The position numbers and the translations under genes were made by a program. Below are positions 8,801 to 17,481 of a DNA stretch of 64,000 bases, piece after piece; position 1 is the stretch's first letter, and each line of letters starts with the position of its first letter. This stretch comes from Jiangella endophytica (lineage in GTDB: Bacteria > Actinomycetota > Actinomycetes > Jiangellales > Jiangellaceae): positions 124,001 to 188,000 of the forward strand of contig NZ_QVAI01000006.1 of assembly GCF_003427025.1 (NCBI RefSeq). The letters run 5' to 3'. The notes below the pieces were generated by a model. The model searched no databases and was not told where the DNA came from. It saw only the letters and a list, made by a program, of their open reading frames with translations.

Positions 8801-10009
8801 GTGACCAGCGAGTCGTCGGTGATGCTGACCGTGGTGCTCGCGGCCGCCGTGCTGGCCCCGATCATCGCCGACCGGCTCGCGCGCGTCGTCCTGGTGCCGT
8901 CGGTCGTCCTGCAGATCGGGCTCGGCATCCTCATCGGGCCGGCCGTCCTGAACTGGGTGCGCGCAACCGGCGTGGTCGACGCGCTGTCCGATCTCGGGCT
9001 GGCGTTCCTCATGCTGCTCGCCGGCTACGAACTGGAGTACGCGCGCATCCGCGGCGCACCGCTGCGCGCTGCCGTGTCGGCCTGGTTCGCCTCGCTGGTG
9101 CTCGGCATCGGGGTGGGCCTGCTGATCGCCGGCGCCGATGCCGGTCTGGTGATCGCGCTGGCCCTGACCACGACGACGCTCGGTGCGATCCTGCCGGTCA
9201 TCCGCGACCGCGGACTGCTGCGCACCGAGTTCGGGACCCGTTTCCTCGCCGTCGGCGCGACCGGCGAGTTCCTGCCGATCGTCGCGGTCGCCTTCGCCCT
9301 GAGCGGTGAGCGCCCGGCGCACACGACCGCGGTGCTGGTGGTGTTCGCGCTGGTCGCGGCTGGAGCGGCGGCATTGGCCAGGCGCCCGCGGCACCCTGCC
9401 GTGGCCCGGCTGGTAACCGTGACGCTCGGGACCAGCGCACAGGTGGCGGTCCGCTTCTGCGTGCTGGTCTCCGTCGCGATGGTGGCGCTGGCCGAGACCC
9501 TCGACCTCGATCCCGTGATGGGCGCCTTCGCCTCCGGCGTCGTGATCCATCTGTTCCTGGACACCGGCGTCCCGAGCGAGTCCGACGAGGTGCTGTCGCG
9601 ACTCGAGGGCATCGGGTTCGGCTTCCTCATCCCGATCTTCTTCATCGTCAGCGGCGTGCGCTTCGACGTCGACGCACTGGCCGACCCGTCGACCCTGGCG
9701 CTGGTCCCGGTGTTCCTGGTGCTCTTCCTGGTCGTGCGCGGCGGCCCGACGGCGCTGCTGCAGGCCCGCACCCTCGGCGTACGTCACGCCGCGGCGATGG
9801 GCCTGCTGGCGGCGACGGCGCTGCCACTGCTCGTCGTCATCACCCGAATCGCACAGGACGAGGGCGTCCTGTCGTCGGGCATGGCGAGTGCGCTGGTCGG
9901 CGCCGGGATGCTGTCGGTCCTGGTCTTCCCCGCGGTCGCCCTGCGACTGCTCGACGGCCGCGCCGCCCGGGACTCACTGGGTCGGTCAGACCCTCACCCG
10001 GGCCCCTGA
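8801..10009 (+). CDS. CPA2-family cation/proton antiporter (NhaP/KefB-like)
   Basis: A 402-residue polytopic membrane protein with about 12 hydrophobic segments and no cytosolic TrkA-type domain. Features of the sodium/hydrogen exchanger family are VVLQIGLGILIGPAVL, LAFLMLLAGYELEY, ALTTTTLGAILPVI and the MGAFASGVV segment in the second half. The transported cation cannot be told. GTG at 8801 follows a G-rich ribosome-binding site (AGGGGGGTGGG). The 54-base gap from the AfsR-type gene allows co-transcription. Confidence 0.88.
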   Translation: MTSESSVMLTVVLAAAVLAPIIADRLARVVLVPSVVLQIGLGILIGPAVLNWVRATGVVDALSDLGLAFLMLLAGYELEYARIRGAPLRAAVSAWFASLVLGIGVGLLIAGADAGLVIALALTTTTLGAILPVIRDRGLLRTEFGTRFLAVGATGEFLPIVAVAFALSGERPAHTTAVLVVFALVAAGAAALARRPRHPAVARLVTVTLGTSAQVAVRFCVLVSVAMVALAETLDLDPVMGAFASGVVIHLFLDTGVPSESDEVLSRLEGIGFGFLIPIFFIVSGVRFDVDALADPSTLALVPVFLVLFLVVRGGPTALLQARTLGVRHAAAMGLLAATALPLLVVITRIAQDEGVLSSGMASALVGAGMLSVLVFPAVALRLLDGRAARDSLGRSDPHPGP

Positions 10010-10050
10010 GCGCCGGGCTACATCCTGTGCCTCTCACCTGAGCATCTCGC

Positions 10051-11040
10051 TCACGCTGCTGCCCTCCGAGCGAGCTCTTGCTCGATCTCGACCACGGCCG
10101 CATGCCACGGAACCGGCAGCGGTGTCATCGTCGTCCAGTAGCGGTGTGCGGACCGGACCGCGGAGCTGATGCCCAAAGGCGCCGAGCCAGGCGCCAGGGT
10201 CCCCAGAACGCGTCGGATCGCCGCGCCCGCTCCGCGTCCTGAAGGACGGATGCCACTGCCTACCAACAGCGTGGCGGTCCGAAGCGCATCGAGGACGGTG
10301 GCCGGCGCCGCGCCGGACAGCTCGCCGAACACGAGCCCAGTCCAATCCTGCGGGTTCCTCGCCCAGGCAAGGCGCTCAAGCCCCGTGCCCAGATCCACTG
10401 CGATGGCGTCCGGGTTGTCGACGTTCCAGAGCAGGACGATGTCACCGAGCTCAACGCCTCCATGCCCGAACATGAGGGTGATCCCTGCAACCTCGCGTCG
10501 GCGCCATACGTCAAGGCGGCCGGCGAAGCTCAGGTGACGTGCATGGAATCCGAGCCGGGACAGCACGAAGAGCCAGTCGTCGAGGATCGCGCCGTACTCC
10601 TCGATCCCCCTGATCGGCTCGATTCGCGACACGTTGACGAACGAGGTGAGATAGCCGTCGACGAGGGCTCCACGGCAGTCTCGCTCGCCTGTGAAGCGCA
10701 CCACAGGCTGGGTGAGGAAACCCTCGCGATGCGTCACCGGACGTCCGTCCTTGAGCAGCGGATCGAGCGATTGCACAGCCGAGACCATGAGGTCGGTGTC
10801 CCGTCCCCAGCGGAGCGGGGCGCAATGGTCGCGCCGCACCCCACGCATCGCGAAAGCGGACTCCAACGTGGCGATGAGTTCCGGCCACGCCAGACGTCGC
10901 CGAGGCGGGCAGTAGGTCGTGCCCAGAGCGCGATAGCGGATCTCGAGCCGACCCTCGGCGACGGCGAAGTCCCATCGCGAACCGAGCGAGCGGCGGATCC
11001 CCGATAGCAGCCGCTGGGCGATGGCCGCGTCGGGCGTCAT
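10051..11040 (-). CDS. Alanyl-tRNA-synthetase-like protein (compact class II core, no editing domain)
   Basis: A 329-residue protein aligning by eye with the N-terminal half of alanyl-tRNA synthetase. SAVQSLDPLLKDG (87-99) and LTQPVVRFTG (109-118) match the AlaRS segment around AGM-QFKP and QKCIR. GYLTSFVNVS (129-138) matches the FEMLGNFS region, GVELGDIVLLWN (195-206) the EIWNLVF strand, and VDLGTGLERLAW (215-226) class II motif 3. GIRPSGRGAGAAIRRVLG (263-280) matches the AlaRS element PSN-GRGYVLRRI. The editing domain, C-Ala and most of the tRNA-binding region are absent; true AlaRS has about 870-890 residues. It is the last gene of a five-gene operon and overlaps the glycosyltransferase by four bases. 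Substrate and acceptor are unknown; amino-acid activation is inferred. Confidence 0.75.
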   Translation of the reverse strand: MTPDAAIAQRLLSGIRRSLGSRWDFAVAEGRLEIRYRALGTTYCPPRRRLAWPELIATLESAFAMRGVRRDHCAPLRWGRDTDLMVSAVQSLDPLLKDGRPVTHREGFLTQPVVRFTGERDCRGALVDGYLTSFVNVSRIEPIRGIEEYGAILDDWLFVLSRLGFHARHLSFAGRLDVWRRREVAGITLMFGHGGVELGDIVLLWNVDNPDAIAVDLGTGLERLAWARNPQDWTGLVFGELSGAAPATVLDALRTATLLVGSGIRPSGRGAGAAIRRVLGTLAPGSAPLGISSAVRSAHRYWTTMTPLPVPWHAAVVEIEQELARRAAA

Positions 11041-12047
11041 CGGAGCATGGACTCGAAGTGACGCCGAGAGTCGAACCGCTTCTGCCCGAGGTCTTGGACC
11101 ACGACCGGCTCGAGCCCGGCCGCCTCCTCGATGGCCTCCGCCAGAACCCTCGCCGCCGTCTCGTCGTCAACCTCAGGCGCGCAGACCCGCGTGACACCGG
11201 TGCGCTCGCAGAGAGCGGCCTGGGCACAAGTTCCGTCCCGCCAGGTCAATGCGGCCACAGGCGTTCCCGCCCGTACTGACTCGCCGAAGACCGCGGCGCC
11301 GGCCTCCACGTAGTCACGTGCCTGGGTATAGACGAATACGGATGTCTGGTGGAGTGCGGCCGCCTTCCGGCGGCCCCCTAGCTCACCGGCCCATTCCACA
11401 TGGTCCGCGGCAAAGAGGCTTCCGTGCGCACGCACGTAGTCGTCGTCGAAGACCGGGCCCACGATGCGTATTCGCCGTCCGAGCAGTTGTGCCGCCCGTA
11501 CAGCGAGATGCGGAGCCTTCTGCTCGTCCACGCGGCCGAGCCACACGAGGTCGTCGCCCGCGACCGCAGGTGGCTCATGCTCGTCGAGACCGAGGTGCAC
11601 GGCCAACTCGGCTATCGGCCGGTGGTCCGCATAGCGCTCCATCATCTCCGGCGAGTAGCAGTACAGCCGTGACCTCGCGCCGTCGAAGGTACCCGGCTCG
11701 TGCTTGAAGTCCGGCGAGTGCTGGAAGGTGACGACATCGCAGTCGAGCTCCTGCCACGTTCGCATCCATGCCGGGTGGGACGGATATTCGTGACCGACGA
11801 TCAGGAGGTCGTAGCCAGCCGATCGCAGTGTCCGCAGTTCGGGCCCGTTCGGCGCGAGGGCCTCCAGCCGGATCGGCTGCCGTGTCCAACCCGGCAGGTC
11901 CGAACGCCAGCCGGGTCCGATGAGATGGACGTCGGCACCTGCCGCTCGGGCGCCGATGGCCACGGCCCACAGCCAGCGTTCGATACCGCCGTAGGCGACC
12001 GGCGGGAAACCGTAGTCGCCAGGAAAGTCGCAGATGCCGACACGCAC
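11037..12047 (-). CDS. GT4-like glycosyltransferase
   Basis: A 336-residue GT-B fold glycosyltransferase, cytosolic, with no membrane segment. The N-terminal domain has PPVAYGGIERWLW, typical of the acceptor domain in family 4. The C-terminal domain has LVWLGRVDEQKAPHLAVRAA and the E-x7-E-like stretch EAGAAVFGESVRAGTPV that contacts the nucleotide sugar. Acceptor and donor are unknown. GTG at 12047 lies two bases after the serS stop, with a TGGAG site inside the serS end, so expression is coupled. As part of the aminoacyl-tRNA-synthetase-like cassette it may glycosylate the product. Confidence 0.85.
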   Translation of the reverse strand: MRVGICDFPGDYGFPPVAYGGIERWLWAVAIGARAAGADVHLIGPGWRSDLPGWTRQPIRLEALAPNGPELRTLRSAGYDLLIVGHEYPSHPAWMRTWQELDCDVVTFQHSPDFKHEPGTFDGARSRLYCYSPEMMERYADHRPIAELAVHLGLDEHEPPAVAGDDLVWLGRVDEQKAPHLAVRAAQLLGRRIRIVGPVFDDDYVRAHGSLFAADHVEWAGELGGRRKAAALHQTSVFVYTQARDYVEAGAAVFGESVRAGTPVAALTWRDGTCAQAALCERTGVTRVCAPEVDDETAARVLAEAIEEAAGLEPVVVQDLGQKRFDSRRHFESMLR

Positions 12048-12049
12048 GA

Positions 12050-13339
12050 TTACTCCAGTTCTCCGCTGGGTGAGATCCGGCGGGCGCCGAGGTACGGAAC
12101 GAGGGCTTCGGGCAGCAGGATCGATCCGTCGGCTTGTTGCCCCTGCTCCATCAGCGCGGCCATCGTCCTGCCGATCGGCAGACCGGAGCCGTTGAGCGTG
12201 GCCGCCAACGTGACCTTCTTGTCAGTGCCACGTGTGCGGATGTTGGCGCGACGGGATTGGAAGGTGCCGAAGTCCGACACCGAGGAGATCTCCCGGTACG
12301 TGTTCTGGCTGGGGAACCACACCTCAAGGTCGTACGTGAGCTGGGCGGCGAAACCGAGGTCGCCTGCGGCGAGAACGACGACGCGATAGGCCAGGCCGAG
12401 CTCCTGGAGGCACGTCTCGGCGTGACCGACCAGCGCGTCGAGCTCCGCCTGCGCATTGTTCGCCTCGCAGATCCGGACCATCTCGACCTTGTCGAACTGA
12501 TGCTGCCGGATGAGCCCCCGGGTGTCGCGGCCGTAGGACCCCGCCTCGGACCGGAAGCACGGTGTGTGGGCGGTCACGGCGATGGGGAGATCTCGCGCCG
12601 GAATCATCTCATCGGCGTAGAGGTTGGTCAGCGGAACCTCGGCTGTGGGGATCAGGAACAGATCACGATCGGCGACGCCGGTCCTGAACAGATCCTGCTC
12701 GAACTTCGGCAGCTGTCCTGTGCCGGTCATCGTCTTGGGAGTGACCAGGTACGGCACCGAGTGCTCGACGTAGCCGTGCCGACGGGTGTGCAGATCCAGG
12801 AGAAAGGCCGAGATCGCGCGTTCCATGGCGGCCCCAGCACCTCGTGCGACACGGAACCGCGGGCCGGACAGCTTCGTCGCTCGCGCGAAGTCGAGTATGC
12901 CCATGGTCTCCCCCAGTTCGACGTGGTCCCTCGCCTCGAAGGCGAATACCGGAGGGGTCCCGACCTTGCGGATCTCGACGGCGAAGTCGCCGGAATCGCC
13001 GTCGGGCGCCCGGTCGTCAGGAATGTTGGGAATGCTCAGCAACAGCTCACGCAGCTGCGCCTGGACGTCGTCGCGTTCCGTCTCGAACTGCCGGATCTGG
13101 TCCTTCACCTCACGTGCCCGCTCCTTGAGCTTGGAGATCTCCTCGCCGGCCCGTGCAGCGCTCTGGACCTCGCTCGCCAGCCGCTTGCTCTCCGCCCGCA
13201 GATCGTCGACGGAGTGAATGGACCTGTTCCGGCGGCTGTGGAGGGACTCGAGAGCTCGAAGGTCGAGGTCGAATCCGCGACGTGCCAAGCGTCGAACGGC
13301 GTCGTCACCCATGTCGATCAGAGTGCGGGCGTCATGCAT
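12050..13339 (-). CDS. serS: Seryl-tRNA synthetase, probably a cassette-borne second copy
   Basis: A 429-residue class II synthetase with an N-terminal tRNA-binding coiled coil (residues ~35-105) and an intact catalytic core. TAEVPLTNL (232-240) is the serine-binding loop, FRSEAGSYGRDTRG (262-275) is motif 2 and GSGLPIGR (384-391) is motif 3. It should therefore make seryl-adenylate and Ser-tRNA. Its N-terminus (MHDARTLIDMGDD) departs from the usual MIDLRLLREDP type and it sits in a biosynthesis-like operon, which suggests an accessory paralogue; whether another serS exists outside the window cannot be seen. The ATG at 13339 overlaps the phosphatase stop by eight bases. Accessory SerRS enzymes supply Ser-tRNA in valanimycin synthesis (VlmL), a possible parallel. 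Confidence 0.92.
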   Translation of the reverse strand: MHDARTLIDMGDDAVRRLARRGFDLDLRALESLHSRRNRSIHSVDDLRAESKRLASEVQSAARAGEEISKLKERAREVKDQIRQFETERDDVQAQLRELLLSIPNIPDDRAPDGDSGDFAVEIRKVGTPPVFAFEARDHVELGETMGILDFARATKLSGPRFRVARGAGAAMERAISAFLLDLHTRRHGYVEHSVPYLVTPKTMTGTGQLPKFEQDLFRTGVADRDLFLIPTAEVPLTNLYADEMIPARDLPIAVTAHTPCFRSEAGSYGRDTRGLIRQHQFDKVEMVRICEANNAQAELDALVGHAETCLQELGLAYRVVVLAAGDLGFAAQLTYDLEVWFPSQNTYREISSVSDFGTFQSRRANIRTRGTDKKVTLAATLNGSGLPIGRTMAALMEQGQQADGSILLPEALVPYLGARRISPSGELE

Positions 13340-14042
13340 GAGAGGTGTCCTTCGTCTCCGTCGGCTGGATTGCTCGGTCGACGCTAGCAAGCTGAGGGGC
13401 CCCGTCAGGGCCGGAGACGACCAAGGTTGCTGATCTTGACCGGGCGCCGGCGGGATCGTCATTCAGCCGCTGCCGCAGTTGCCCGAGCAACACCTTCATG
13501 ACGTTGTCCGGCACGGCGAGCGCCTCGACGTATGGCGCCTCGGCGTAGAAGAGTGGCAGGGACTCAGCCGCCGGGCGCGGCCGCATCGTCCAACCGATCA
13601 ACGAGAACAACAGCCCGTGGCAGACAACGACCCGCGGCGCGGGCCTGAGGAGCGCCGCGGCGGCGCCGCCGACCATTCGCCGCATGGCTTCCCTCTGGGA
13701 CTCCGACGATCCAGGCGGACGACGATCGCAGCCGTGTTCGCGCAGCCAATGAGCGTACTCCGTGAACGGGTGTCCTTCGAAGTCGCCGTAGTCGAGCTCG
13801 TTCAGCCGCCAGTCGATGGCCACGTCCGCCAGCGCATCGGCGAGCAGGGACGCCGTCTGACGAGCTCTGGGGAACTCGCTCGACAGCCATGTCCTCACCA
13901 AGCCCGGCGGGAACTGCAGTGCCGCCTGCCTGCACGCTTCGACCCCGTGTTCGTCGAGCGGAAGGGATACCGCCGGGTCACCATTGACGAGGTAGCGGCG
14001 GCTGGTGGCCGTCGGCCCGTGGCGCAATACATAAGTGGTCAT
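13332..14042 (-). CDS. Histidine phosphatase superfamily protein (phosphoglycerate-mutase-like)
   Basis: A 236-residue protein of the branch-1 histidine phosphatase superfamily. The phosphorylated histidine is in LRHGPT (His8). SSEFPRARQTA carries the second phosphate-pocket arginine, ELDYGDFEG the acid and VVVCHGLL the second histidine. It is a phosphatase rather than the glycolytic mutase, since it is shorter and lacks the mutase RHGESEWN pattern seen in gpmA at 39821. The substrate is unknown; within the operon it may dephosphorylate a pathway intermediate. ATG at 14042 has a strong AGGAGG site seven bases upstream. Confidence 0.85.
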   Translation of the reverse strand: MTTYVLRHGPTATSRRYLVNGDPAVSLPLDEHGVEACRQAALQFPPGLVRTWLSSEFPRARQTASLLADALADVAIDWRLNELDYGDFEGHPFTEYAHWLREHGCDRRPPGSSESQREAMRRMVGGAAAALLRPAPRVVVCHGLLFSLIGWTMRPRPAAESLPLFYAEAPYVEALAVPDNVMKVLLGQLRQRLNDDPAGARSRSATLVVSGPDGAPQLASVDRAIQPTETKDTSHA

Positions 14043-14067
14043 CGGTGCACCTCCTCGGGTCATCCGG

Positions 14068-15318
14068 TCAGCTGAGGTGCATACCCTGGGAAACGAGTTC
14101 GTCTGTGAGCGACGGGAACTCGGCCAGGGTCTCGGCAACCACCGATTCGACCTTGCCTGGATCGGGCTCGGCGGACGACAGCCGGACCAGGATGCGCCAG
14201 GGGCGATCGAGCCGCTTTCCCGTTCGGCTCACGAGGTGCACCTCGGCGTGGCCGCCGGTGAGGTCAAAGAGTCGCGCAGCCAGGCGCCGGGCGGCGATGT
14301 TGTACAGCTTGCCCACGTGGTAGACGGGGTTCTTGCCGCTGGCACCCTCAAGATTCATCGGTCGCAGCGGCGTGATGAGGCCGTTGACGCGGTTGCCACG
14401 GCCGACCACCCCTTCGTCGCCCGACTCGATGGAGCTCCCGGTGAACGTCAAATAGAGCTCGTCCTTCTGGGGTACGTCTCGAGCGTTGAGGGTGAATCCG
14501 ACCCGCGTGCCGGGAAGGTCCCTGGCCGCGAGACGGTGACATTCGGCCAGTACGTGGTCGAGGTTCTCCACGTACGCGCGCCGGCCACCGACATGGCTGG
14601 ACTTCTGCGGGACGCAAAGCACGACATCCGCGGCTTCGCCATCCCAGTAGCCCATGAGTTTGACGTCCGATCCGCACCACGCGTGTGCTCGGGTGAACTC
14701 GCTGGGCGCGGAGAAGTGGTCGACGAGTTGGCGCACGAACGACTCGAACTGGTTCTCCGGTGCCCAGCCGGTCCCGAGAGACGTGTCGTTCGCCAGCTTC
14801 ACGCGACGCTCACGCAGATCGTCGACCGACCGAGGGTTGAACCAGCGCTGACGGTCGGGAACGTCACTGCCCGTGAGGACGGCCCCAGGGCTCGAATTGG
14901 TGGTGACGTTGAAGGAGATGTCCAGGTGATCCGAGACCTCCGGGAGCCGTTCGGCGAAGAACGCACGGACCTCCGCCTCGACGATGTCGCGCACCGGTAT
15001 CAGCTGTTCCCCGCAGGCTGTCGCGGCACGACCGTTGACGAGCACCCGCACGGGTGCCGTCATCCGTCCGCCTCCGTAGCGGACCTCGGAGGACCCGCCG
15101 AGCAGGGCTAGCTTGTCGAAGTTGTGGTGCAGGACGGCGCCGAACTCGCGCAGGGTGTAGGCGCTGTACACGCGCGAGAGACGCTCGGCCAGGTGATCGG
15201 CCAGGGTGTCCGGATGCCCGAAACCCTTGCGTTCCACGATCGTGGTCGCGTCCGGCCGAGGTACGCCGGTGACGATGACGAGGTGGCTGTCGTCGACTAC
15301 GGTCGTCGTCCTGGTCAT
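14068..15318 (-). CDS. S-adenosylmethionine synthetase, archaeal-type family
   Basis: A 416-residue protein of the archaeal-type methionine adenosyltransferase family, distinct from bacterial MetK. Family signatures are VERKGFGHPDT (28-38), LHHNFDK (63-69) and GGSSEVRYGGG (74-84), and later DISFNVTTNSSPG and the basic VSRTGKRLDRPW near the C-terminus. It should make S-adenosylmethionine from methionine and ATP. It is the first gene of the minus-strand cassette operon; ATG at 15318 has GGAG six bases upstream. A dedicated SAM source suggests a SAM-consuming step, yet no methyltransferase is seen in the cassette. Alternatively the enzyme may act on a methionine analogue. Confidence 0.88.
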   Translation of the reverse strand: MTRTTTVVDDSHLVIVTGVPRPDATTIVERKGFGHPDTLADHLAERLSRVYSAYTLREFGAVLHHNFDKLALLGGSSEVRYGGGRMTAPVRVLVNGRAATACGEQLIPVRDIVEAEVRAFFAERLPEVSDHLDISFNVTTNSSPGAVLTGSDVPDRQRWFNPRSVDDLRERRVKLANDTSLGTGWAPENQFESFVRQLVDHFSAPSEFTRAHAWCGSDVKLMGYWDGEAADVVLCVPQKSSHVGGRRAYVENLDHVLAECHRLAARDLPGTRVGFTLNARDVPQKDELYLTFTGSSIESGDEGVVGRGNRVNGLITPLRPMNLEGASGKNPVYHVGKLYNIAARRLAARLFDLTGGHAEVHLVSRTGKRLDRPWRILVRLSSAEPDPGKVESVVAETLAEFPSLTDELVSQGMHLS

Positions 15319-15540
15319 GGCAAGCTCCGTCCGATTGTCGGGCACGAGATTCGAGACCGCCGGCCGGCTGAGAACGCCGCTCGGCGAGGCGGTGACATCC
15401 CGTCGATGCGTCGAGTGTGTCCTCGGCCCCGCTTGGTCCGGAACGCACTTCCCCGGCACTAGTACCGAACTTCCACCGAACCGCGGTCGCGTCCGAGGCG
15501 CGATGACGCCGAGCTCGCACGCCGGTGCGATGCTTGCGGC
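15319..15540. promoter_or_regulatory. Divergent promoter region of the cassette
   Basis: This 222-base region separates the divergent synthetase operon and aminotransferase gene and must hold promoters for both. ACCGAAC occurs twice, at 15464-15470 and 15475-15481, exactly 11 bases apart and so on the same helical face, as for an activator or repressor site. The aminotransferase ATG at 15541 has no visible ribosome-binding site, so its mRNA may be leaderless. The minus-strand gene has a clear GGACGGAGC site. The HTH protein encoded at 16384 is an obvious candidate binder, but this is not shown. Confidence 0.35.
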
Positions 15541-16317
15541 ATGGCCCAGTTGAACGGGAAACCGATCGGAGTCGATCAGCTCGCGACGCTGGCTCTGGTC
15601 CCGTACGGACACTTCACGTCGATGCTGGTCGATCACGGTCGGGTCCGCGGACTCTCCCTGCATCTCCAGCGACTGATCAAGGACTGCCGCGCACTCTTCG
15701 GCACCGACCTGGATCCTCAGAATGTGCGCGAGTTCGTCCGGCGGGTCGCGCCGCCCGATCGCGCCTGCGTGGTGCGGGTGACCATCTTCGATCCGGACCT
15801 GGAGCTCGGGCATCCGGCGGCAGCATCGGACCCTCAGGTCCTGGTGACCACGCGGCCGGCGAGCGTCGGCAGGTTGCCCGGCCTACGGGTCCGGTCCAGG
15901 GTCTACGTCAGAGACCTGCCCCAGGTGAAGAGCGTCGGCTTGTTCGCGACGTTGGTCCACCGCCGCGAAGCGCAACGGTCGGGGTTCGATGACGCGCTGT
16001 TCGTCGACTCTCACGGCGTCGTGCTCGAAGGCGGCACTTGGAACCTCGGCTTCGTCGGTGCCGACGACCGGCTGATCTGGCCGGATGGCCCATCACTGAC
16101 GGGTGTGACGATGCAGTTGCTCAAGGAGGCGGCTGACCACGAAGAACGCGCGGTACGACTTGCCGACGTCCCGTCGATGCGGGCTGCCTTCGCCACCAAC
16201 GCTGCCATCGGAGTTCGGCCGATTACGGCCATCGACGGTATGGAACTCGCGACCTCTCACCCGGCGATGACGAAGCTCCAGGATACGTATGCCGCCCTGG
16301 GCGAAGAACCGTTGTAG
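15541..16317 (+). CDS. Class IV aminotransferase (fold-type IV PLP enzyme)
   Basis: A 258-residue PLP-dependent enzyme of the branched-chain/D-amino-acid aminotransferase and aminodeoxychorismate lyase family. The PLP lysine is Lys130 in LPQVKSVG, followed at the usual spacing by RREAQRSGFDDALFVD and the EGGTWNLGFV segment whose Glu contacts the PLP ring nitrogen. ITAIDG near the C-terminus is also typical. The reaction cannot be chosen from sequence. It is divergent from the synthetase operon and 66 bases before the HTH-SUMF1 gene, on the same strand. Within the cassette it could supply or consume an unusual amino acid for one of the synthetase-like proteins. Confidence 0.87.
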   Translation: MAQLNGKPIGVDQLATLALVPYGHFTSMLVDHGRVRGLSLHLQRLIKDCRALFGTDLDPQNVREFVRRVAPPDRACVVRVTIFDPDLELGHPAAASDPQVLVTTRPASVGRLPGLRVRSRVYVRDLPQVKSVGLFATLVHRREAQRSGFDDALFVDSHGVVLEGGTWNLGFVGADDRLIWPDGPSLTGVTMQLLKEAADHEERAVRLADVPSMRAAFATNAAIGVRPITAIDGMELATSHPAMTKLQDTYAALGEEPL

Positions 16318-16383
16318 TGGACACCTCAACTCAGCCATGAGATTCTTTTGGGTTACCCTCATCCACCCCTGGGGAGTCATCCC

Positions 16384-17481
16384 ATGGCGACAGTCGAACG
16401 ATGGACGGGACTCGAGACGCGCGCTCTACGTGAAGCGCAGCGAATGAGCATCGAGGCGTTCGCGGCGCATCTGGGCGTCAGCGACCGAATGGTTTCGAAA
16501 TGGGAGGCGCGGGGCGGCACGATCAACCTCAGACCGGTCAATCAAGCCGCATTGGACACCGCCCTCGCGAGTTCCCCTCCAGACGCCCGTGCCCGATTTC
16601 TCAGACTGACGGACTCGCTCGGCTCGGTGTTCCAGCCCGGTCGCACGCCACATCTGACCGCCCCGAACCGTCCCCGCTGGCGCCACCCCACCGACGCCAA
16701 GCAGATGACCCTCGTCGGCGACGGTTACTACCTCTCCGGAACCGGCGACGTCCCGACGCACCTCATTGCCTTCTACATCGATGTTCATCCGGTCACCAAC
16801 GCCGAGTACGAGCGGTTCGTGCGCGCGACTGGGCACCGAGCGCCCGATCACTGGCGCCTGAGCCAGCCACCCGCCGACCATCCCGTCGTCTACGTGTCCT
16901 GGCGGGATGCGGCGGCCTACGCAGCCTGGGCAGGCAAGTCGCTGCCGACGGGACGACAGTGGGAGAAGGCCGCCAGAGGACCGAACGGCCAGGCGTATCC
17001 GTGGGGTGAGCAGCCGACGCCGGCGAAATGCAATACGCGTGAGACCCGCATCGGCACGACGACGCCCGTCGACCGGTTCCACAGCGGCGTGAGCCCGTAC
17101 GACGTCTACGACCTGTGCGGCAATGCATGGGAGTGGACCTCGACGGAGTCCGAGCCGGCCAGGTACGAGTTGAAGGGCGGAGCGTGGACGAGTCCCTTCG
17201 CCCGGGCACTCCCCTCAGCGTTCAATGACGCGTCGGCCGACATGCGCGACGACGACACCGGCTTTCGATGTGTGGCCCCAGCGGCGGGCGACGCGTGGGT
17301 GTCAGCCGACGAGCAGGGCGGTGGCGACGGCGGCCAGGCCCTCGCCGCGGCCGGTGAGGCCGAGGCCGTCGGTGGTGGTGCCGCTGACACTGACCGGTGC
17401 GCCGATCGCCGCGGAGAGCGCCGCCTGCGCTTCGTCGCGACGGGTGCCGATGCGCGGGCGGATGCCGATGACCTGAACTGA
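16384..17481 (+). CDS. HTH-SUMF1 fusion (formylglycine-generating-enzyme-like), running into ispF antisense
   Basis: A 365-residue predicted protein. Residues ~10-40 form an XRE-like helix-turn-helix ([21 protein letters not shown]). Residues ~95-300 form an FGE-sulfatase/EgtB-type domain ([65 protein letters not shown]). The Cys pair that binds copper in true formylglycine-generating enzymes is not present, so that activity is unlikely. ATG at 16384 has GGGGAG upstream; a T-rich stretch with TACCCT lies further up. The recognisable domain ends near residue 300 (about 17283). The frame then runs 180 bases antisense through the ispF end, giving a Gly/Ala/Asp-rich tail that probably has no function. 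It may be a sensor-regulator for the cassette. Confidence 0.8.

Follow-up and report, generated by a model that had tools for sequence, protein, structure and literature searches.

A conserved, mobile actinobacterial operon pairing an extra seryl-tRNA synthetase with an alanyl-tRNA synthetase-like protein

The DNA considered here is a stretch of 64,000 nucleotides (the window, in which positions are counted) from the 7.85 Mb assembly of Jiangella endophytica. It contains an operon that unites two class II aminoacyl-tRNA synthetase-type proteins, an extra seryl-tRNA synthetase (SerRS) and AlaL, a short protein resembling alanyl-tRNA synthetase (AlaRS), with a family 4 glycosyltransferase (GT4), a histidine phosphatase and an archaeal-type S-adenosylmethionine (SAM) synthetase (SAMS). 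This operon, which some soil actinobacteria have in common, is real, conserved and mobile, and presumably biosynthetic. On balance, it is probably a horizontally moving pathway for a small aminoacylated, glycosylated metabolite, in which SerRS and AlaL would together bring about seryl transfer, probably to an acceptor resembling a sugar or a nucleoside; such transfer onto a small glycosylated molecule had been proposed in an initial annotation of the window, and is still the best reading of the locus. If correct, the operon would represent a class of short clusters without nonribosomal peptide synthetase (NRPS) or polyketide synthase (PKS) genes, possibly overlooked by searches built on those enzymes, in which the duplicated synthetase provides a testable hook from which the amino acid, and possibly the target, could be read.

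An operon conserved across actinobacteria

The five genes lie on the minus strand in the order SAMS, histidine phosphatase, SerRS, GT4 and AlaL, running from 15318 down to 10051, with frames, order and spacing as the initial annotation had set out. AlaL and GT4 overlap by 4 bases, GT4 and SerRS (ATG at 13339) are spaced by 2 bases, SerRS and the phosphatase (ATG at 14042) overlap by 8 bases, and a gap of 25 bases separates the phosphatase from SAMS (ATG at 15318). Genes for an aminotransferase and for a helix-turn-helix (HTH) protein with a SUMF1-like part diverge from SAMS, the second probably starting at the ATG at 16384. The features are as follows.

10051 to 11040, minus strand: AlaL, AlaRS-like, 329 residues, limited to the N-terminal portion of the AlaRS fold, putative aminoacyl transferase or ligase (profile, predicted fold)
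11037 to 12047, minus strand: GT4 family glycosyltransferase (PF00534, fold match)
12050 to 13339, minus strand: extra intact SerRS, 429 residues, with the N-terminal tRNA-binding arm (TIGR00414, PF02403)
13332 to 14042, minus strand: histidine phosphatase, branch 1 (PF00300)
14068 to 15318, minus strand: archaeal-type SAMS (PF01941)
15541 to 16317, plus strand: class IV aminotransferase, member of an exchangeable upstream cassette (PF01063 / NF006734)
16384 to 17301, plus strand: HTH and SUMF1/FGE-like protein, presumed regulator, exchangeable cassette (HTH, FGE-sulfatase PF03781)
9950 to 17301, unstranded: genomic island with all seven genes, absent at the site in G001, G004, G008 and G010

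Related loci were collected with a four-sequence AlaL alignment as the query of genome contigs, a single AlaL sequence having returned no match. Confirmation succeeded for 68 of the 88 pattern matches, which constitute a sample because they came from two peptide patterns only. The named loci comprise 53 from Streptomyces, four from Nocardiopsis, three from Kitasatospora, two from Actinacidiphila, one each from Thermobifida, Streptomonospora, Kribbella and Sinosporangium, and two without a genus. By tblastn, SAMS, an APH-type kinase (K1), the histidine phosphatase, SerRS, GT4 and AlaL follow one another in one order and on one strand, within at most 7.5 kb, in 58 of these 68 loci, a proportion conditional on AlaL, by which the loci were fetched; the other ten are without one to five core genes, at contig ends, through apparent decay or with another order. 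Median gaps between core neighbours range from -8 to 0 bases (42-56 loci measured), and the core proteins co-diverge, with pairwise distances correlated at r 0.79-0.90 (49-55 rows, without an unrelated-gene control). The core genes are under purifying selection, with dN/dS of 0.04-0.36 across six genes and eight close pairs. Given this constraint, and the retention of six genes in order at 58 loci, the operon is more than a chance association.

Hence the view of the initial annotation that these genes form one cassette around two class II synthetase-type proteins was borne out, although its composition had to be revised. The six core genes co-occur in the same order, contrary to the lack of co-occurrence that the annotation had named as a refutation, but the seven genes in the window do not recur as one unit: the aminotransferase was found by tblastn in five of the 68 loci and the HTH-SUMF1 protein in six, and therefore neither belongs to the core. 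Conversely, the kinases had been overlooked, K1 (matching PF04655) being part of the six-gene core and K2 (matching PF01636), a second APH-type kinase, standing directly before SAMS in 33 of the 58 six-gene loci. Genes within loci were called from codon-position signals by a heuristic. Many of the functions given for their neighbours were assigned by eye rather than from family matches, among them relaxase, integrase, restriction-modification, P450, acyl-AMP ligase, epimerase, radical SAM and TyrRS.

The same linkage is evident across whole genomes. Among 392 sampled genomes of the genus Streptomyces, AlaL is present in 29 (E up to 1e-8), a count that includes decayed copies, a fragment in G228 and the divergent G583, while PF01941 SAMS is present in 37. 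Both occur in 26 genomes, in each on one contig and within about 10 kb. The 11 of 37 genomes with SAMS and no AlaL mostly have other SAMS families; in the ten examined (L049, L155-L159 and L162-L165; G523 was left out), G643 (L157) resembles a decayed core, and the remainder are other SAMS families or not resolved. G486 has a second, decayed core (L161) besides its core.

In J. endophytica, the seven genes form a genomic island of roughly 7.3 kb, at about 9.95-17.30 kb. Four genomes were fetched from 11 of the same genus, and the island is lacking at the site in all four (G001, G004, G008 and G010): no more than about 20-60 bases separate the 3' end of the sodium/proton exchanger gene, or of a short-chain dehydrogenase/reductase (SDR) gene in G008, from the ispF that comes next, too little space for seven genes. 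The island genes have a GC content of 65.7-68.1%, lower than that of the exchanger (72.2%) and of ispD and ispF (76-77%), although low GC by itself proves no island, as carD is at 63.5%. At the other junction, the HTH-SUMF1 frame continues to 17481, its 17302-17481 part overlapping the last portion of ispF on the opposite strand; the insertion boundary has presumably deprived the gene of its original stop codon. Among G001-G011, full-length AlaL occurs only in G003 (67% identity), where the island occupies the same site. No attachment repeats of at least 10 bases were found between the two island junction stretches, and a repeat search at the island ends gave short or diverged pairs only. In G003, a partial second copy of ispF/ispD adjoins the island (L038, 6982-7493).

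The synthetase pair and its predicted chemistry

The identities originally assigned to the genes were confirmed by family matches, and by profile and fold in the case of AlaL. The SerRS in the window scores 445.8 bits against TIGR00414 (cut-off 301.65) and 65.7 bits against PF02403. Its motif stretches occur in at least 95% of 63 operon SerRS and the serine-site stretches are kept, suggesting that the enzyme most likely still charges tRNA(Ser). It is an intact, dedicated extra copy. At least two SerRS above the family cut-off were found in all 26 genomes checked, namely G003, G009 and, from the 29 Streptomyces-genus genomes with AlaL, 24 that include G583, and the genome of the window itself has one more SerRS elsewhere, on another contig (C12). 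With seven housekeeping SerRS the window protein shares 38-41% identity. In a quick tree that gave long-branch warnings, a branch with support of 100 has all operon SerRS on the same side, where the SerRS of G009 and that of L246 are also placed, the latter 57% identical to that of the window. The possibility that each gene serves an unrelated housekeeping role, which the initial annotation had named as its refutation, was rejected, as the SerRS is an extra copy in 26 of 26 genomes and the island is absent in four of four. The L246 gene (9331-10743) is itself a third SerRS, in a cluster with FabI-like, ketosynthase and acyl carrier protein genes (by eye).

AlaL matched no Pfam and no NCBIfam family at E 0.01, and the curated AlaRS models were not among its matches. 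However, a 63-row AlaL profile retrieved AlaRS from the PDB (E 2.3e-4), and an AF2 model (pLDDT 92.2) matched AlaRS 3wqy in Foldseek (E 2.9e-13) and Archaeoglobus AlaRS 2ztg in VIA-align (Z 26.8, root-mean-square deviation 3.3, 313 residues aligned). AlaL is thus predicted to adopt the AlaRS catalytic fold. The alignment spans residues 1-422 of 2ztg and nothing beyond is present: at 329 residues, against mostly about 892 in AlaRS frames, AlaL is not a full-length AlaRS with editing and C-terminal domains. Truncated AlaRS-like frames of about 390-480 residues are apparently common in Streptomyces; two examples of about 400 residues have intact motifs (L252, 4231-5427; L253, 4736-5983), and no SerRS was seen near them in the two fetched neighbourhoods.

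SerRS and AlaL keep company beyond the standard arrangement, in which one gene lies between them. At L166 (G583), an AlaL homologue (33%) directly follows a SerRS of another lineage (34% to that of the window), at the end of a larger cluster located at about 1-19 kb of that locus. The latter includes two acyl-AMP-ligase-like genes, a P450, a radical SAM enzyme, an epimerase and a related histidine phosphatase (all by eye), along with a GMC oxidoreductase, GT4 and SerRS (by Pfam) and SAMS, and perhaps makes a lipidated relative of the product. The L166 protein and seven AlaL have QPxVR, SFVN, an Asp before the motif 3 stretch and ER in common. At L146, from a metagenome-assembled genome of Micromonosporaceae, GT4, AlaL, K1 and SerRS are arranged in a different order.

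We infer the catalytic steps and the product as follows. GT4 would glycosylate a small acceptor; phosphate would be added by the kinase or kinases, where present, and removed by the histidine phosphatase. The dedicated SerRS would produce seryl-adenylate or Ser-tRNA(Ser). AlaL, which amounts to an AlaRS-type catalytic domain lacking the editing and C-terminal regions, would bind an activated amino acid, most likely serine and possibly alanine, and transfer it to an acceptor amine, in the manner of AbmF with AbmK and AcmF with AcmD. The SAM made by SAMS would more likely enter the product as a building block, or donate adenosyl, than serve methylation, as the core contains no methyltransferase; that SAM is the scaffold is a guess. 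If the product mimics seryl-AMP, the operon SerRS could also be a resistant copy shielding the producer. The upstream HTH protein and its enzyme would act as an exchangeable control module.

The family and fold assignments of the other enzymes are as follows. Two Glu seven residues apart, which we take to be the EX7E motif, are invariant in 35 GT4 rows. The GT4 fold is nearest to AviGT4 (Z 29.4), a cyanobacterial alpha-1,2-glucosyltransferase, tetrahydrobiopterin glucosyltransferases, BshA and MshA, and because these are small-molecule glycosyltransferases, the predicted fold suits a small acceptor. SAMS exceeds the PF01941 cut-off of 27 with 302.6 bits, and GHPD, NDTS, GDEG, GRGNR and GKNPVYHVGK are found in at least 95% of 59 operon SAMS. 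It falls below the NCBIfam methionine adenosyltransferase cut-offs, the best score being 307.6 against 435 bits (subfamily PRK04439.1-5), with four equivalog models likewise below theirs. Other archaeal-type SAMS genes (L040, L158, L160, L159, L156, L048, L162, L164 and L165) have neighbours resembling myo-inositol-phosphate synthase, SDR, PHP phosphatase, TIM-barrel and Gfo/Idh/MocA proteins (mostly by eye; by Pfam at L159, L160 and L164), and SAMS appears to be part of several small cluster families.

Three published systems bear comparison, and the first two have the key step in common with the proposed route. In albomycin biosynthesis, AbmF joins a nucleoside amine to seryl-adenylate, which "appears to be supplied" by the SerRS AbmK (PMC9032320); AbmK also confers self-resistance. 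In ascamycin biosynthesis, the AlaRS AcmD makes Ala-tRNA, from which the truncated AlaRS-like AcmF transfers alanyl to a sulfamate; AcmF also accepts Ser-tRNA(Ala), and is reported to have N219Q and D232E at residues for ATP and alanine activation (PMC12945691). In valanimycin biosynthesis, the dedicated SerRS VlmL supplies Ser-tRNA to a small-molecule pathway (PMC2922099, PMC9032320).

The operon resembles albomycin in encoding an extra SerRS with a synthetase-like protein in Streptomyces, and ascamycin in coupling a truncated AlaRS-like protein to a full-length synthetase, the likeness of AlaL to AbmF and AcmF being drawn from their published descriptions. It differs from albomycin in that a family search found no transaldolase, epimerase, radical SAM, NRPS or siderophore genes among the seven island genes, while SAMS, GT4, the phosphatase and the kinases do not feature in the available part of the albomycin account (PMC9032320). 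Unlike ascamycin, the partner is a SerRS rather than an AlaRS, no nucleoside sulfamate genes are among the seven, and AlaL keeps the amino-binding Asp216 (E in AcmF). At the position of the AlaRS Asn, which is altered in AcmF too, AlaL seems to have Asp200 (by eye). The comparison with VlmL made in the initial annotation is weaker: a dedicated SerRS is shared, but the VlmA transferase is described as having a GNAT/MprF fold, and no such family was matched among the seven proteins. SbzA of SB-203208 is likewise described as a synthetase-like enzyme, one that loads a secondary metabolite with an amino acid taken from tRNA, although this IleRS-like protein has a class I fold and uses another amino acid and another scaffold. 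The original statement that the cassette fits no known cluster class therefore stands for the gene set, for which no description was found among the matches listed in the literature searched, most subscription journals being outside its reach, but not for the chemistry, which would follow the AbmK/AbmF and AcmD/AcmF pattern. By this analogy, the gene set is seemingly an undescribed variant of a known principle, that of a synthetase with a synthetase-like transferase.

Contrary observations and a glutamate counterpart

Several observations weigh against seryl transfer by a SerRS-AlaL pair. Firstly, Arg115 (motif 2), Arg223 (motif 3) and the amino-binding Asp216 are invariant in 63 of 63 AlaL, and with these kept AlaL may be able to activate an amino acid by itself, independently of SerRS, while its AlaRS ancestry makes alanine a possible amino acid. 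Secondly, the mechanism offers no explanation for the presence of SAMS. Thirdly, neither K1 nor K2 is at the locus in the window copy or in G003, and hence the kinases are not essential in every version. Fourthly, AlaL occurs without SAMS in G640, G757 and G228, in what are seemingly decayed copies, and in G009 a related SerRS, at a different site, is accompanied by no more than a short AlaL-like stretch. Finally, there is no constant tRNA neighbour: 48 of 60 scanned loci are without any tRNA, leading to the rejection of a dedicated tRNA as a core part, and the other 12 have one call each (six Thr, two Pro, and one each of Leu, Lys, Arg and Ser), those for tRNA-Thr mostly far downstream and perhaps marking integration sites.

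The AlaL residues do not all point in one direction. The AlaRS Asn is seemingly replaced by an invariant Asp200, and because the motif 2 and 3 Arg and the Asp are kept while this Asn seems to be lost, seryl-AMP, Ser-tRNA or a self-made adenylate may each be the input of AlaL. In the MAFFT alignment, AlaL and AlaRS were aligned at motif 3 and the next helix and not at motif 2, the motif 2 and Asn equivalences being assigned by eye. The residue roles are presumed from those in AlaRS, except where quoted for AcmF.

Further context comes from a sister operon in three genomes of another family (G250, G188 and G383; L043, L044 and L045, with Pfam run on L044 only). In all three, SAMS is accompanied by a sulfatase-like protein and by two further proteins, a full glutamyl-tRNA synthetase (GluRS) and one resembling it (GluRS-like), and another full GluRS is encoded elsewhere in each genome. 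At L044, the GluRS-like protein aligns with GluRS at 27%, and all three such proteins are without KLSKR and have a changed HIGH stretch, with FRVG, FRAG or LRAG in place of the FHVG of GluRS. As a degenerate GluRS relative thus stands beside a full GluRS and SAMS, two unrelated synthetase folds seem to be used alike, each as a full synthetase with a degenerate relative and SAMS. This suggests a general principle. A tentative and rather doubtful extension is that there exists a class of mobile actinobacterial metabolite systems with a core of SAMS, a duplicate synthetase and a degenerate transferase, in at least serine and glutamate versions with shared cassettes and a SAM scaffold, the aminoacylated adenosyl- or sugar-type products of which would be synthetase inhibitors or hormones. 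Another synthetase-based system may lie on the contig L247 (1009-6632), where genes for AspRS/AsnRS-like, APH kinase, HD and NUDIX proteins accompany a third SerRS (by eye).

These data bear on whether AlaL could instead be an ATP-dependent ligase needing neither tRNA nor SerRS. Mycothiol is made by a GT4 (MshA), a phosphatase and a synthetase-derived ligase (MshC). The operon could analogously follow a pseudo-disaccharide route with another amino acid, the SerRS being a resistant spare of the target of the product. The operon shares this trio of activities and a GT4 fold close to those of MshA and BshA; Arg115, Arg223 and Asp216 are invariant in AlaL, whereas two key positions of AcmF are reported to hold Q and E; and, in albomycin producers, a second SerRS is known to confer self-resistance. 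However, MshC is class I and CysRS-like whereas AlaL is class II and AlaRS-like, and no deacetylase or acetyltransferase was matched among the seven proteins. Moreover, AlaL keeps a SerRS partner even when this is of another lineage, the AlaRS Asn seems to have been replaced, and the lack of ATP motifs in the GluRS-like protein of the sister operon points to a shared two-protein mechanism. A self-sufficient AlaL is therefore considered unlikely, and cooperation with SerRS is preferred.

Exchangeable cassettes and mobile surroundings

Upstream of the core, 51 of the 68 loci could be assigned by hand to nine types of cassette, each with an HTH-type protein and mostly one or two metabolic enzymes: SUMF1 with aminotransferase, as in the window; XRE with NUDIX; XRE with flavoprotein; HTH with HAD; HTH-TPR with a creatininase-like protein; HTH with a beta-lactamase-like protein; HTH-AAA with DUF1932 (and HAD); another HTH with DUF1932; and HTH (with APH). 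Families were assigned by Pfam on one representative of most genes, several HTH proteins being named by eye with no HTH model. L142 has genes of two types, and is labelled c19, while in the c28 type the APH partner is present in three of five loci. On a quick LG+G4 tree of the core (55 rows, 47 labelled and eight left out of the count), the cassette type changes at least 20 times, the minimum possible being eight, whereas shuffled labels give a mean of 32.3 changes, with 0 of 200 shuffles as low as observed. Hence cassette types are partly inherited and often exchanged. Near-identical cores (L098 and L105; L110 and L114) carry different cassettes, which is an unusual evolutionary mode. Among the glutamate operons, L045 has XRE and NUDIX beside it, and L044 has HTH-AAA, DUF1932 and HAD, while no cassette was recognised at L043. 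XRE and NUDIX pairs were also found away from such cores in six of seven fetched neighbourhoods, and are therefore general devices.

Such exchange could reflect an internal signal or hormone, with the core making a common scaffold, the exchangeable enzyme tailoring it and the adjacent HTH protein serving as its receptor. The frequency of change, the different cassettes on near-identical cores, the absence of a transporter from the core, and the recurrence of two cassettes beside two of the three GluRS-type operons are all consistent with this idea. On the other hand, the clustering of cassettes on the tree indicates that they are partly inherited with the core, and the XRE and NUDIX pairs may be ordinary local regulators. 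We regard a hormone as improbable, and a metabolite synthesised through seryl transfer as the preferred explanation.

The surroundings of the loci indicate how the core spreads. In 70 gene-called stretches (the 68 loci, L038 and the window), a relaxase-like family (named by eye) is present in 22, DUF317 (Pfam) in ten and an integrase-like family (by eye) in seven, and restriction-modification genes are close to some loci (by eye). As the first three families recur near the loci, the core seemingly often travels on integrative elements. AlaL had no match among the plasmid or phage records searched.

Mobility of this kind would also suit a resistance cargo with no product, in which insensitive SAMS and SerRS take the place of the housekeeping enzymes, and an outside toxin or antibiotic is inactivated through the kinases and the remaining genes. 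SAMS and SerRS are indeed relatives of essential enzymes, PF04655, matched by K1, is an antibiotic-kinase family, and relaxase-like and restriction-modification genes lie nearby. Yet GT4, the phosphatase and AlaL, as a truncated AlaRS relative, do not belong to a resistance repertoire, purifying selection acts on the core, and neither plasmid or phage records nor PADLOC, in which none of nine proteins matched, gave support. A resistance cargo is decidedly improbable by comparison with a biosynthetic operon, and phage defence is not favoured. One locus departs from the cassette scheme, L141 from Kribbella, where the upstream gene (1043-1978) is not in a recognised HTH pair, weakly matches a SLOG family (STALD, E 1e-4, below the cut-off), and adjoins RibD_C and a deaminase-like gene (by eye).

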